Shown one piece after another: positions 38,900 to 43,630 of a stretch of 64,000 bases of DNA (positions are counted from its first letter, which is position 1; the number at the start of each line of letters is the position of its first letter). Both the position numbers and the translations under genes were made by a program. The notes under the pieces were generated by a model that saw only the letters and a program-made list of their open reading frames with translations, had not been told where the DNA came from and searched no databases. Where the stretch lies: positions 390,501 to 454,500 of the forward strand of contig NZ_CP015247.1 in the NCBI RefSeq assembly GCF_001891125.1. Reading direction: 5' to 3'. This DNA comes from Leuconostoc suionicum (GTDB lineage: Bacteria > Bacillota > Bacilli > Lactobacillales > Lactobacillaceae).

Positions 38900-39008
38900 C
38901 GATTGTTTGTGTTGCGGTAGAATATACTTAGAAAGGGTATAGAAATAAACGTGGCGATAATTATTGGCTTTTAGACACGGTTATCTATACATAAAACATG
39001 AGGTTTAT

Positions 39009-40160
39009 ATGAGTTTAACTTATCAAAAATTACTAGTAGCTGTACCTTTAATTTTGCGTGGCGGTAACGTACCAACCATTGTGGGAGAAGCTGGAATTGG
39101 AAAATCTGCCCTTGTTGCTGAAGTAGCTAAAAAATTGGATGCGAAACTTTTTACAACAGTAGTTTCACTATCTGAAAAAGGAGATTTAGCAATTCCAATC
39201 CCACCTTTGAATGAGACATCATTCTTGCAAACTAAAAATTATGGTCAATTGGCTGATATTAAATTTGGTTATACACACACTTTGATACAAATTATAGAAC
39301 AAGCTGAAATCGAGCCGGACCGAACCATTATCTGGTTTTTAGATGAATTCAACCGAGGATCACAAGCGGTACAAGGTGAACTAATGAATCTTGTTTTACA
39401 GCGACAAATTAATGATCTGGTATTGCCTGATAATGTCAAACTCATTCTCGCAGAAAATCCCGATGATTCAATGCAAGGGTTTGAGAATGCCGAATATGCG
39501 GTTCAAACATCTGATGCGGCGATTAAAGATCGAACCACTCGACTGGTCATGACCGTTTCAGTTCGTGATTGGTTGCAGTGGGCCGCATCAGGAAAAAAGC
39601 GACCGCACATACACGGCTTGGTCCGCCAATTTATTGCCGAAAATGCCCAATTATTGTACCCAAAAAATCGAGATATTGACTTGAATCCTACCCCGCGTGC
39701 GTGGCAGCGCGTATCTGATAATTTATTCCAGTTGCAAAAACTAGCCAAAGAGCAGCAAGATGAATTGTTATTTGATATCGTAGCGGGAGATCTTGGAGAC
39801 AATTGTGCCACACAATTTGTGACTTTTGTCCAAGAAAAAATAACTAGTCTAACAGCTGAGGACGTCTTTAATTCAACACCAAGTGGTCCAAAATTACCAC
39901 AGATAATACGTGAAAAATTCCAGAGTTTTTCAGAAATTCAAAAGCTGAACGTGATGAAAACTTTATTATTAACGGCAGATATGAGACTAGATAATAATGC
40001 TGGTCGTTTCAGTGAGTTACTCAATTTGATTGCTCCCGATGGACAGTATGCACTGGTAAAACAAATGACGAGCGCGCCAATTTTGGATGATTTATATGCT
40101 TCTGATAATCATTACGCCAACGTGTTATATCAACAGATTATGGATATTGCTACACGATGA
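39009..40160 (+). CDS. MoxR-type AAA+ ATPase
   Basis: 383 residues. AAA+ core with Walker A GEAGIGKSAL (about 26-35), Walker B IIWFLDEFNRG, sensor I LILAENP and a conserved Arg pair in KDRTTRLVM. MoxR ATPases usually work with VWA-domain partners as chaperones that load metals or remodel complexes. ATG 39009 follows GAGGTTT; the gene is the first of four that overlap by four bases each (ATGA). No homologue with a known role can be named from the sequence. Confidence 0.87.
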   Translation: MSLTYQKLLVAVPLILRGGNVPTIVGEAGIGKSALVAEVAKKLDAKLFTTVVSLSEKGDLAIPIPPLNETSFLQTKNYGQLADIKFGYTHTLIQIIEQAEIEPDRTIIWFLDEFNRGSQAVQGELMNLVLQRQINDLVLPDNVKLILAENPDDSMQGFENAEYAVQTSDAAIKDRTTRLVMTVSVRDWLQWAASGKKRPHIHGLVRQFIAENAQLLYPKNRDIDLNPTPRAWQRVSDNLFQLQKLAKEQQDELLFDIVAGDLGDNCATQFVTFVQEKITSLTAEDVFNSTPSGPKLPQIIREKFQSFSEIQKLNVMKTLLLTADMRLDNNAGRFSELLNLIAPDGQYALVKQMTSAPILDDLYASDNHYANVLYQQIMDIATR

Positions 40161-41314
40161 AATCAGAGAATGACAAGCTAATTATTGATGGTATTAAAAC
40201 ATTGCTCGATGTATCACCCCTCTACGGTAATATTGTGATGAACTTAGTCCGAGAGGTGAATCCACAGGCTGCTAATCCATTAGCGTTAAAATGGCAAGGA
40301 CACCACTGGTACTTGGTGGTTAACCCTAATTTATTAACGGCTCGTTTTACATCACACAACCAGGTTGCTGCTGCATTAGCTCATGAGGCTTTGCATGTTA
40401 TTTGGCAGCATCCGACTCGTTATGCGCAAGAACGAAAACATAATCAAATGGTTGATATAGGTACTGACTTAGCGGTCAACCAATACTTACCAAGTGATTT
40501 GGGTGAATTACCTGGTGCAATATCGTTTCAAACTATCAATGAACTCTATCACATTAAATTACCACACAATCAGGATTCATCGACCTATATTTCTTTATTG
40601 TCAGAAGTTGATCAAAAAAATTCACAGGCGAAAAAGAAGACTTTGCCAAAACATACGGAATGGAAAAGCGCAAGTAATGCAATAGAAGAAGCTGAGTCTG
40701 CATTGAAGAACGTGATAAAAAAAGCCAACGACGATACGAGATACGCTGGACGTGGTAATGTATCGGGTGCTGTTTTGCAACAAATTAGTGAGGTTGTCGT
40801 ACCGAAGCGCAACTGGAAAAGCATTTTGCGAACTGGTATCAGTCAAGCACCAAATAAAAAGAAAGATTCACGAGCTAGGTTTAATCGCCGACAGGCATAT
40901 CGACTTGATCTACCAGGAGAAATTAGTCGTTATGATACGGAAATTGCTGTTTTCATTGATAATTCTGCATCAATATCTAATCAACAGGCAAGTGAGTTTT
41001 TAGCCAATGCCATGCAGATAACAAAACAATTTGATATTAACGTGCATTTCTTTTCGTTTGACACGAAAGTGCATCAAATTAAAAATATAAAAACGTGGGA
41101 ACGCCACGCCGGTGGTGGAACAACTTTTCAAAGCATATTCGATGCATTAATTGCTTTAAAATTTTTTCCCCTGCAAACACTGGTAGTTATTTTTACGGAT
41201 GGTGATGGTGAAAAAGAGTTGATTCAAACCAAATTTAAACATGTGTATTGGTTACTACCAGAGGGGCAAACATTAAGCCTACCATCACCATTTGGAAAGG
41301 TTATTACGCTATGA
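40157..41314 (+). CDS. Putative metallopeptidase/VWA-domain protein (DUF2201-like)
   Basis: 385 residues. An N-terminal metallopeptidase-like domain with HEALH at 76-80 (in AAALAHEALHVIWQHP), a polar basic linker (about 155-245), then a VWA-like domain with an intact MIDAS: DNSAS at 268-272, Thr near 322 (GGGTTF) and Asp in FTDGDGE near 348. This is the standard partner of a MoxR ATPase. No signal peptide, so cytosolic. ATG overlaps the stop of the ATPase gene. Whether the HExxH site is catalytic is unknown. Confidence 0.85.
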   Translation: MKSENDKLIIDGIKTLLDVSPLYGNIVMNLVREVNPQAANPLALKWQGHHWYLVVNPNLLTARFTSHNQVAAALAHEALHVIWQHPTRYAQERKHNQMVDIGTDLAVNQYLPSDLGELPGAISFQTINELYHIKLPHNQDSSTYISLLSEVDQKNSQAKKKTLPKHTEWKSASNAIEEAESALKNVIKKANDDTRYAGRGNVSGAVLQQISEVVVPKRNWKSILRTGISQAPNKKKDSRARFNRRQAYRLDLPGEISRYDTEIAVFIDNSASISNQQASEFLANAMQITKQFDINVHFFSFDTKVHQIKNIKTWERHAGGGTTFQSIFDALIALKFFPLQTLVVIFTDGDGEKELIQTKFKHVYWLLPEGQTLSLPSPFGKVITL

Positions 41315-41601
41315 AATTAAAACCTCAAGATCTTAAGAGTTTTATTGATAAAGACAGGCGCTACAAGCGGGCAGAAGCATTACTGATTGGGCAGTGGGAA
41401 TCATTGCTATTAAGTGAGCCGTGGGACATGCCGATGATTACACGAGCCGATGTTTCTTTTGCCAAAACATTAAGCGAAGCAAATGTTGTTAAAACAGATG
41501 TTGATTTGTCGACGTTTAAGGGTGTACAGGCATTTATAAGCCACAACAGCAGTCGGCTAACACCAGACGTTATTAAACTATTAAAGGAGCCATTTTTATG
41601 A
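41311..41601 (+). CDS. Unrecognised small protein in the MoxR/VWA operon
   Basis: 96 residues from ATG 41311, which overlaps the previous stop (ATGA). Soluble, rather basic N-terminus (MKLKPQDLKSFIDKDRRYKRAE), then mixed helices; no Cys, no membrane segment and no motif that I know. Position between the VWA gene and another unknown gene, with four-base overlaps on both sides, makes it a likely subunit or substrate of the same system. Confidence 0.75.
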   Translation: MKLKPQDLKSFIDKDRRYKRAEALLIGQWESLLLSEPWDMPMITRADVSFAKTLSEANVVKTDVDLSTFKGVQAFISHNSSRLTPDVIKLLKEPFL

Positions 41602-42104
41602 AAATAAACTTAGTATTAGCACCAGAGCAACCCGTTTCGGAACTGTTAACATTACAAAGCGCTCAACCGCAAAATGTATTTTATTTAGGAAAAATTTCTC
41701 AACTGGCAGGGACAAATTTACTCATCATTGATGCACAGAATGTCGTTGCAAAATTTGCCCGTCCTATTGGATTTGAGAGTCGAGCAGTTATCGGACAATT
41801 TAAAGGGAACGTTGTTCATCAAATTGCATTTCAGGCTAAGGATAACAATGATGAGTTGATTGCAAAGTTATTAACTGGAAATGCCATTATGGCTCAAAAT
41901 GATAATGGTAAGTCAGAGTATATGATTTGGTCATTCTGGCCAACTCACGATGAATTAGCACGTTTTCTAGCTAGTGAAATCTATCAACAAATGCACGATT
42001 TGATGAAAAATCCGTATACTACAACTTATCAGCACGTGACTGATGCATCGCAGTTATCCTTGACGACCAAAATGCGTGACTTTGACAAGGAGTGGTGGGG
42101 ATAA
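41598..42104 (+). CDS. Unrecognised protein, last gene of the MoxR/VWA operon
   Basis: 168 residues. Overlaps the previous gene by four bases. No membrane segment or signal peptide. N-terminal half predicted alpha/beta (INLVLAPEQPV, NLLIIDAQNVVAKFARP), C-terminal part with SEYMIWSFWPTHDELARFLASEIYQQMHDL and an acidic aromatic end (FDKEWWG). I recognise no family. No clear terminator follows; the next strong promoter starts 54 bases later. Confidence 0.75.
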   Translation: MKINLVLAPEQPVSELLTLQSAQPQNVFYLGKISQLAGTNLLIIDAQNVVAKFARPIGFESRAVIGQFKGNVVHQIAFQAKDNNDELIAKLLTGNAIMAQNDNGKSEYMIWSFWPTHDELARFLASEIYQQMHDLMKNPYTTTYQHVTDASQLSLTTKMRDFDKEWWG

Positions 42105-42219: not shown

Positions 42220-42282
42220 ATGCAAAACATGAATCAAAAACAAAACTCATCTCAAGCCCTCCTTCTCCTCCTCATGCTGTAG
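42220..42282 (+). CDS. Leucine-rich leader peptide (attenuator peptide)
   Basis: 20 codons: MQNMNQKQNSSQALLLLLML then TAG, with AGGAGG nine bases upstream. Five consecutive Leu codons (CTC CTT CTC CTC CTC, 42259-42273), an ATG, and a sixth Leu codon CTG directly before the stop. Six of the last seven codons are Leu, four of them the same CTC. This is the hallmark of a translated leader that senses leucyl-tRNA. Confidence 0.88.
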   Translation: MQNMNQKQNSSQALLLLLML

Positions 42283-42409
42283 TCATGATGAGGTTTTTCG
42301 CACTCATGACTAACTGGAATCAGTGTTCATGGGTGTTGAAATGATGAGTATAAATGCTGTCATTATTAACGATTAGTAACCCATGAATTTTGGTATTCAT
42401 GGGTTTTTT
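42280..42409 (+). promoter_or_regulatory. Transcription attenuator of the branched-chain amino-acid transporter operon
   Basis: Five segments pair in alternatives: A 42280-42288 (TAGTCATGA, starting with the leader stop codon) with B 42304-42312 (TCATGACTA); B' 42301-42309 with C 42327-42335; C 42326-42334 (TTCATGGGT) with D 42379-42387 (ACCCATGAA); D 42378-42388 with E 42395-42405 followed by T6, the terminator. A ribosome stalled on the Leu codons leaves A free, giving A:B and C:D (read-through). A ribosome at the stop masks A, giving B:C and D:E (termination). Confidence 0.85.
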
Positions 42410-42454
42410 GTTTGCGAAAAGAAGGAATTGAGAGAATAAATTGGAGAAGAAAGA

Positions 42455-43630
42455 ATGAAAAAAATTGTAATTGTCGGCGCTGCGTTTATTGTTGCTATTG
42501 TTGCTATCGTTGCATTTGGGATAGTCAATAAGTCTAGCAAAGCATCAACATCAAATGTAATCAAAATCGGGGGTGTCTTTGATACATCCGGTGACGCTTC
42601 CTCATATGGAAAGGCTGAGCAAGATGGTGCTAACTTTGCTATAAAGCAAATTAATGCTAATGGTGGTGTTAAAGTTAACGGAAAAAGCTATAAGTTTAAA
42701 ATCATTAACAAAGATGCTAAGACGGACAATACTGAAACCGCTTCGGTAACAAGTAGTTTGATTAACAAAGAAAAAGTCAGTGCTATCGTTGGTCCCGTGA
42801 TTACCTCTGGTGTTCAAGCAGCAGTGCCAGTGGCAACTCAAGGTAAGACGCCGATGATTTCACCAACTGCTGGTGCAGACAACATTACTTTGCAAAAGAA
42901 TGGGAATGTTCAACCTTACGTATTCCGCGCACAATACAAAAATTCTTTTATGGGTACAAAGATGGCACAATTTGCCACAGAGACTTTAAAAGCTAAAAAT
43001 ATTGTGATTTTCCAGGACAATTCTTCCGATTATGGTACTGGTATCACATCTGCATTTAAAAAAGCCTTTAAGGGTAACGTCGTAGATGTTGAATCTTATC
43101 AAGAAGGCACGAAAGATTTTCAAGCAGTTTTGACAAAAATTAAGGATAAAAAGTTTGACGCAATTGCAATCAACGGCTACTACACTGAGGGTGGTGCAAT
43201 TTTGAAGCAAATGCGTGATATGGGAATTGATGTGCCGGTTATTGGACCAGATGGCATTGGTGATCCTAAAACGGCTGAAATTGCGGGAAACAAAAATACA
43301 AGTAATGTTTATTACGCGGCACATTTCTCAGTTGATGCACCAGCTACTAAGGTTTCAGCACCATTCGCCAAAGCTTATAAAAAGGCTTATGGCAAGTATC
43401 CATCACAATTTACAGCTTTAGCTTATGATTCAGTTCGCATGATAAAAGCAGCTATTGAAAATGAAAATTCAACCAGCAAATCGGCAATTACTAAGGGATT
43501 GGCTAACTTGAAAAATTTTGATGGTGTAACTGGTAAGATGTCAATTGACAAAGACCACAATCCTGTCAAATCAATGGTTATGGTCGGCATGACTGATGGT
43601 AAAGAGTCATCTGCCGTAGTTGTTAAGTGA
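42455..43630 (+). CDS. livJ: Branched-chain amino-acid ABC transporter substrate-binding protein
   Basis: 391 residues of the Leu/Ile/Val-binding family (type I periplasmic-binding fold): IKIGGVFDTSGDASSYGKAEQDGANFAIKQIN, SAIVGPVITSGVQAAVPVA, FRAQYKNSFMGTKMAQF, GPDGIGDP. An N-terminal hydrophobic segment (about 3-24) is followed by SSKAS with no Cys, so there is no lipobox; it may be held by an uncleaved anchor or released. Start at 42455 with GGAGAAGAAAG upstream, 45 bases after the attenuator. First of five liv genes. Confidence 0.93.
   Translation: MKKIVIVGAAFIVAIVAIVAFGIVNKSSKASTSNVIKIGGVFDTSGDASSYGKAEQDGANFAIKQINANGGVKVNGKSYKFKIINKDAKTDNTETASVTSSLINKEKVSAIVGPVITSGVQAAVPVATQGKTPMISPTAGADNITLQKNGNVQPYVFRAQYKNSFMGTKMAQFATETLKAKNIVIFQDNSSDYGTGITSAFKKAFKGNVVDVESYQEGTKDFQAVLTKIKDKKFDAIAINGYYTEGGAILKQMRDMGIDVPVIGPDGIGDPKTAEIAGNKNTSNVYYAAHFSVDAPATKVSAPFAKAYKKAYGKYPSQFTALAYDSVRMIKAAIENENSTSKSAITKGLANLKNFDGVTGKMSIDKDHNPVKSMVMVGMTDGKESSAVVVK

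Follow-up and report, generated by a model that had tools for sequence, protein, structure and literature searches.

The four-gene locus and its ATPase-VWA pair

The window, a stretch of 64,000 nucleotides from Leuconostoc suionicum (contig NZ_CP015247.1, positions 390,501 to 454,500 of the forward strand), belongs to a genome of 2.05 Mb in two contigs, of which the main one measures 2.03 Mb and contains the window. It carries a compact group of four genes, here termed A to D, in which A encodes a MoxR-type AAA+ ATPase and B a von Willebrand factor A (VWA) domain protein. The third gene, C, is a constant partner of A-B in the Lactobacillaceae. Comparisons used 80 named loci, which the A query itself selected as the best among 150 relatives, so that the set is biased towards near relatives. 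The genera represented include Leuconostoc, Convivina, Weissella, Lactiplantibacillus, Secundilactobacillus, Paucilactobacillus, Limosilactobacillus and Philodulcilactobacillus. A draw of 301 Lactobacillaceae genomes was independent of A. The features of the locus, numbered from the first base of the window, are as follows.

39009..40160, + strand: gene A, MoxR-type AAA+ ATPase (AAA_5), 383 amino acids (aa); PF07728 match, present in 80/80 named loci, as the search design dictates
39084..39107, + strand: Walker A motif GEAGIGKS of A (residues 26-33); P-loop pattern in 33/33 A proteins
39342..39347, + strand: Walker B Asp-Glu (D112, E113) of A; WFLDEFNRG invariant in the A alignment
40157..41314, + strand: gene B, DUF2201_N (putative metallopeptidase-like) and DUF2201 VWA domain, 385 aa; PF09967 and PF13203 matches
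40382..40396, + strand: HEALH of B (H76-H80); both His invariant in Lactobacillaceae, Glu variable
40958..40972, + strand: DxSxS of the metal ion-dependent adhesion site (MIDAS) of B (D268-S272); invariant in 77/77 Lactobacillaceae and 6/6 outgroup sequences
41311..41601, + strand: gene C, 96 aa, predicted all-helical, no known family, constant third component by co-occurrence
41583..41589, + strand: AAAGGAG in the final codons of C (Lys-Glu-Pro), an apparent Shine-Dalgarno sequence for D; matched by AAAGGAGCCAT 5' of D in two loci without A-B-C
41598..42104, + strand: gene D, 168 aa, predicted HmoB/LmHde-like two-domain alpha+beta barrel, Leuconostoc/Convivina add-on by distribution

A first-pass annotation, made from the sequence of this stretch, had described four genes joined by exact 4-base overlaps, and the open reading frame (ORF) coordinates agree at the A/B, B/C and C/D junctions alike. 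Elsewhere the same overlap is found at A/B in 26 of 78 loci, at B/C in 19 of 78 and at C/D in 15 of 16 (counted from longest-ORF starts, with the listing tallied by eye), and at all three junctions in just 3 of 16 loci besides the window; the exact overlap throughout is not a conserved trait. The start of A used here is the ATG of the first-pass annotation, and a longer TTG-started frame opens at 38964. Conservation of the genes in several genera puts the observation far beyond chance.

Judged by its sequence, A is a MoxR-type AAA+ ATPase. It matches PF07728 (AAA_5) at 28.8 bits against a cut-off of 22, and its Walker A (GEAGIGKS) and Walker B (LDEFNRG) motifs are intact in the window. When the AAA_3 model (PF07726) was searched in the same genome A was not reported, the sole match lying elsewhere. 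With the bpMoxR model (PF20030) A reached 11.7 bits, below the cut-off of 27 that would mark a bpMoxR-type ATPase, and the PADLOC models gave nothing for A or B beyond PtuA for A at E 0.024. The clade-defining feature of MoxR proteins is an insert in helix 2 (PMC7159879, in excerpt).

B exceeds the cut-offs of both of its domain models (PF09967, 54.1 bits versus 26.4; PF13203, 38.4 bits versus 23.2), with the HxxxH domain preceding a VWA domain in which the DNSAS, GGT and TDG elements of the MIDAS are intact. It lies immediately 3' of A in 78 of the 80 named loci; the remaining two (L165, L174) show neither B nor C, as the sequence available for them ends roughly 145 and 39 bases after A. The earlier description of a MoxR-VWA pair, with intact Walker motifs in the ATPase and both HEALH and a MIDAS in its partner, is thus borne out by the window sequence, by the AAA_5 and DUF2201/DUF2201_N matches and by the presence of the MIDAS in 77 of 77 relatives.

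Linkage and structure of the third gene

C lies 3' of B in all 78 named loci that extend that far. For wider searches a C profile was seeded with homologues found 3' of B in nine other Lactobacillaceae genomes. In the 301-genome family draw, C was present in 101 genomes and DUF2201 in 102; in the extra genome (G649) the DUF2201 match falls short of the cut-off (E 6e-4) and lies in a 728-aa frame, and this genome, which has no C, is excluded from the count. C and above-cut-off DUF2201 therefore occupy the identical 101 genomes, and in 101 of 101 they are adjacent on one contig, the largest gap between the two profile matches being 145 bases. Among 295 genomes of the order, C was found in 12, which are exactly the 12 DUF2201-matching Lactobacillaceae genomes. 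A further 17 DUF2201 matches in that draw belong to two other families, f5 and f3 (the f3 matches being weak and below the cut-off), and none is accompanied by C. No genome in either the order or the family draw contained C without DUF2201. In the co-occurrence check proposed in the first-pass annotation, C thus proves to be a defining partner of A-B. The annotation's suggestion that the two extra proteins define the system holds for C alone: D is missing from 62 of 78 named A-B-C loci, occurs in 3 of the 295 order genomes and survives by itself in 2 of 18 other Leuconostoc genomes. Weissella confusa and W. cibaria (L112, L114, L115, L116) have a second C in tandem.

The predicted structure of C, modelled with a 68-sequence alignment, consists of six helices with no sheet (predicted local distance difference test score, pLDDT, 93.9; predicted template modelling score, pTM, 0.84). 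The invariant residues are L3, A21, W29 and D47. No convincing match to the fold was obtained in the PDB by Foldseek (best E 1.4) or VIA-align (best Z 2.8), or in the BFVD; the absent match is not proof of a new fold. Searched as single sequences, neither C nor D matched anything in Pfam, NCBIfam or PADLOC at E<=1. The 68 members of the C alignment gave weak, scattered matches to Pfam TY-Chap1 (6/68, best E 0.012) and CDC37_M (4/68), NCBIfam TyeA (2/68) and PADLOC DpdD (1/68, E 0.0019), which are mutually inconsistent and are therefore read as chance. A profile search of C against the PDB returned SpaS at a non-significant E of 0.1. The earlier statement that both small proteins fit no family accordingly stands for C; for D the predicted fold described below clearly resembles known proteins, an outcome that the first-pass annotation had itself named as counting against its reading.

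The fourth gene and the genomic surroundings

D is predicted with a pLDDT of 87.4, the last 13 residues falling below 50. Over its whole length the model resembles HmoB, LmHde, Lin2316 and 4ae5 by both Foldseek and VIA-align, with an E of 2.2e-6 to heme-bound HmoB (4jou, Foldseek) and a Z of 14.0 to 3fj2 (VIA-align; 3.1 Å over 142 residues). We take 4ae5, whose title reads 'major regulator of staphylococcal pathogenesis', to be the TRAP protein. Identity to the fold neighbours is 12-18% in the top seven VIA-align rows. The predicted model of D joins two tandem ferredoxin-like domains in one barrel, the arrangement described for HmoB, in which the heme-ligand His lies in the C-terminal domain (PMC4835899, in excerpt). 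An ABM match in 1 of 16 D members (E 0.056) agrees with this fold. A match to ArsA_ATPase in 1 of 16 members (E 1.7e-4) is taken as chance, the other members having none.

The column of the HmoB heme-ligand His was located through a profile alignment of D with HmoB from the PDB, where HmoB scored a non-significant E of 0.19. Read by eye in 16 D proteins, this column holds H in 2 (the window among them), K in 7, Q in 3, I in 2, N in 1 and T in 1. Since the aligned helix His is found in 2 of 16, heme degradation by D cannot be assumed.

Judged from its distribution, D is an add-on of Leuconostoc and Convivina. All 18 other Leuconostoc genomes have it, as do two further genomes of the family (60 searched; 21 with D including that of the window). 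In two Leuconostoc species, represented by G008 and G013, it persists without A-B-C. No A was matched in G013, and G008 gave only a 19-bit stray; C was not found in G008, and none of A, B and C occurs at the D locus in either genome. The sequence 5' of D in these genomes, AAAGGAGCCAT, matches the apparent Shine-Dalgarno sequence that in the window is embedded in the last part of C, and the simplest reading of these sequences is a clean loss of A-B-C with retention of D. This apparent Shine-Dalgarno sequence is contained in the codons for LKEPFL, the conserved tail of C in Leuconostoc, so the conservation of the tail may serve the translation of D rather than C.

In trees of A and of B, Secundilactobacillus, Lactiplantibacillus, Weissella, Convivina and Paucilactobacillus each form one clade, and the Leuconostoc clade of the A tree includes Convivina and L111. 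This clustering by genus fits vertical descent with losses. A-B-C remains intact while its flanks vary by genus (mpg/pepO-like, sbcDC-like, ffh-rpsP, upp-tgt-like, liv and others; the names are our own reading of the sequences, made with no family search). A 3-methyladenine-glycosylase-like gene lies just 5' of A in 25 loci, at -26 to +5 bases in 24 and at 39 bases in one; ffh is 5' of A and rpsP 3' of C in 13 loci, and an sbcC-like gene is immediately 5' of A in 8. As no gene setting is common to all loci, the neighbours do not reveal a client.

Downstream of D in the window (42220-42410, + strand), a leucine-rich leader peptide, MQNMNQKQNSSQALLLLLML, is preceded by a strong Shine-Dalgarno sequence and followed by a terminator-like hairpin (42380-42410), just 5' of a branched-chain amino acid ABC transporter gene that starts at 42455. 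The leader is retained in the two nearest relatives examined (L066, L073). This sequence looks like a transcription attenuator; an Rfam search of the region gave a sub-threshold match only. Within the first 150 bases 3' of D, five other loci (L097, L098, L103, L106, L113) have by eye a stretch resembling a thiamine pyrophosphate (TPP) riboswitch. The window and its nearest relatives have transporter genes 3' of D where other Leuconostoc have this stretch.

Proposed function and comparison with known systems

We propose that A-B-C is a vertically inherited MoxR/VWA remodelling chaperone of the Lactobacillaceae with a dedicated small third subunit, a proposal for and against which we find the scales evenly balanced. 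The sequence data give the gene families, the strict C/A-B linkage, the conserved motifs, the predicted folds and the clustering by genus; ring assembly, chaperone activity, metal binding and an adaptor role for C we infer. A would most likely assemble into an ATP-hydrolysing ring; B would dock on it, and the MIDAS metal would grip an acidic patch of the client, as shown for NorQ-NorD. By analogy with that pair, A-B would act as an ATP-driven remodelling chaperone. Within B, the HxxxH...H...D domain would probably carry a metal ion that serves for structure or recognition. C, as adaptor or regulatory subunit, would bind A-B and either present the client or restrict access to it. D would have joined the operon in the Leuconostoc/Convivina line, co-expressed with the A-B-C machine and independent of it.

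Several observations weigh against this proposal. DUF2201_N was found in 14 of 199 genomes of the phylum (that of the window included). The C profile gave no match at the 14 DUF2201 loci of the 13 other genomes, within about 1.5 kb to either side of the DUF2201 match (highest score 5.9 bits at E 0.81; the positive controls L125, L170 and L187 were found at 111-125 bits), so A-B is apparently able to work without C. The loss from two Leuconostoc species implies that A-B-C is dispensable. Finally, the strict linkage to A-B that suggests a subunit or adaptor could equally be that of a dedicated client.

The last point is the basis of the strongest alternative, in which C is the client of A-B and the actual effector of the pathway. 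Its linkage to A-B is as strict as expected of such a client, NorQD works on a dedicated client (PMC9976466, in excerpt), and C is duplicated in tandem in Weissella. The f5 family has in 6 of 6 loci (L062, L063, L064, L065, L085, L086) a different conserved gene of 149-171 aa 3' of A-B, and the phage AR9 has a gene overlapping B, as if these were lineage-specific clients. Such sequences hint that lineages attach their own third protein to A-B, and they support an adaptor and a client equally. As C is small and has neither an enzyme-like motif nor candidate metal ligands among its four invariant residues, we consider this alternative unlikely, although it deserves serious attention.

That A-B-C is an ATP-dependent zinc protease, with A unfolding substrates, the HExxH domain of B cleaving them and C as adaptor, appears improbable. 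It would suit the HEALH of the window, from which a metallopeptidase was first suspected, as well as the Pfam name 'putative metallopeptidase', and an analogous phage pair has been proposed to process structural proteins (PMC7824862, in excerpt). The motif itself is present in B of the window; its catalytic Glu is what many relatives lack. H76, H80, H85, Y89, D104, N108 and the MIDAS residues are found in 77 of 77 Lactobacillaceae B proteins (split-frame rows L101 and L108 being excluded, and L165 and L174 having no B), while position 77 is occupied by Glu (40 proteins), Val (27), Gln (8), Asn (1) or Thr (1), so that 37 have no catalytic Glu. The six f5 proteins all carry Met or Ile at this position and Gln in place of H76, and retain the MIDAS DxSxS. 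A family-wide HExxH with catalytic Glu, as in a zincin, is therefore not found (0/6 in this outgroup), and from these alignments B is not a conserved protease. The invariance of the MIDAS, His and Asp residues beside a variable E77 indicates that the conserved part of B is an interaction site with a possible metal site, rather than a peptidase base; its N-terminal HxxxH...H...D domain probably binds metal in a structural or recognition role and not as a working protease.

B is in two frames in L. fallax (L108 and L069) and broken in the assembly of L. inhae KCTC 3774 (L101), with C kept in both; D is kept in L. fallax and interrupted in the L. inhae assembly. Sequencing error and decay are indistinguishable as causes of the breaks in B. 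A VWA-like protein of Weissella, A0A0D1M163, was detected in a metaproteome (PMC11988878, in excerpt) and is a candidate for B.

Very doubtful is the idea that D is a heme- or metal-related client of A-B-C in Leuconostoc, with A-B-C engaged in cofactor handling. The C/D overlap (15 of 16 loci) and fold neighbours that include the heme-degrading HmoB and LmHde speak for it; the 62 of 78 A-B-C loci that have no D, the two species in which D outlasts A-B-C, and the rarity of His at the HmoB helix position (2 of 16) speak against it. A conflict or defence system with C or D as effector, as first suggested from the existence of MoxR-vWA ternary conflict systems (PMC7159879, in excerpt), is the least probable reading, given the low bpMoxR score and lone PtuA match of A, the single-member PADLOC matches of C (best E 0.0019), the strict inheritance by genus, the ordinary chromosomal flanks (ffh-rpsP, mpg-like), the lack of a plasmid match for C at E<=0.01, and the absence of toxin-like or other effector-type domains when C and D were scanned against Pfam, NCBIfam and PADLOC, scans in which no models specific to other ternary subtypes were run.

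Returning to the chaperone proposal, a bolder form of it is put forward tentatively, as something rather less than an even chance. C may represent a protein family of its own, new to science and perhaps of a fold not yet seen, as the obligate third MoxR/VWA subunit in Lactobacillaceae; the former protease domain of B may have turned into a pseudo-protease that holds metal; and lineages outside the Lactobacillaceae (a further family of the Lactobacillales and large phages) may independently have added their own unrelated third protein to the A-B core. No description of an A-B-C system was found in the literature searched on DUF2201 (by titles), MoxR/VWA, Leuconostoc or lactobacilli. About one third of the sampled Lactobacillaceae genomes (101/301) have kept it, and Lactiplantibacillus and Limosilactobacillus are among the genera that carry it. 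What appears new is a conserved third component on a known kind of machine, D being an add-on with a known fold as modelled. Strict three-gene linkage together with natural loss in two species points to a small, dispensable system, in bacteria amenable to laboratory work, for probing what a third component does in a MoxR/VWA chaperone.

Among known systems, HmoB, LmHde, Lin2316 and TRAP share with D the whole-length two-domain alpha+beta barrel. HmoB differs in that its helix His is not conserved in the D family, and in that D sits in the A-B-C operon. The f5 family, which may be the Aerococcaceae, has a third gene that was considered as a remote C and rejected (hhalign probability 0.1%). Other DUF2201 pairs of the phylum have, by eye, an AAA ATPase gene beside the DUF2201 gene where this is visible, with the order reversed in some.

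In jumbo phages of group 2.2, MoxR is paired with a vWA protein that bears a metallopeptidase domain at its N terminus, and a role in virion assembly has been proposed for the pair (PMC7824862, in excerpt). The pair g028-g029 of phage AR9 resembles A-B in having the AAA ATPase gene directly upstream of a vWA gene annotated with pfam09967 and pfam13203 (zincin-like), and resembles A-B-C in having another gene downstream that overlaps B. It differs in that its B is about 24% identical over 78% and retains HELLH; its third gene (226 aa) reached 3.4 bits against the C profile and was rejected as a remote C.

NorQ-NorD, CbbQ-CbbO and RavA-ViaA likewise consist, as does A-B, of an adjacent MoxR-type AAA+ ATPase and a C-terminal VWA protein with an intact MIDAS. 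In NorQ-NorD, the MIDAS residues and ATP hydrolysis are required for activation of the target, and the MIDAS is dispensable for binding to NorQ (PMC9976466, in excerpt). B differs from the VWA proteins of these pairs by the DUF2201_N HxxxH domain that precedes its VWA domain (the corresponding regions of NorD, CbbO and ViaA lie outside the comparison), and the Lactobacillaceae system is further set apart from all three pairs by its constant third gene, C.

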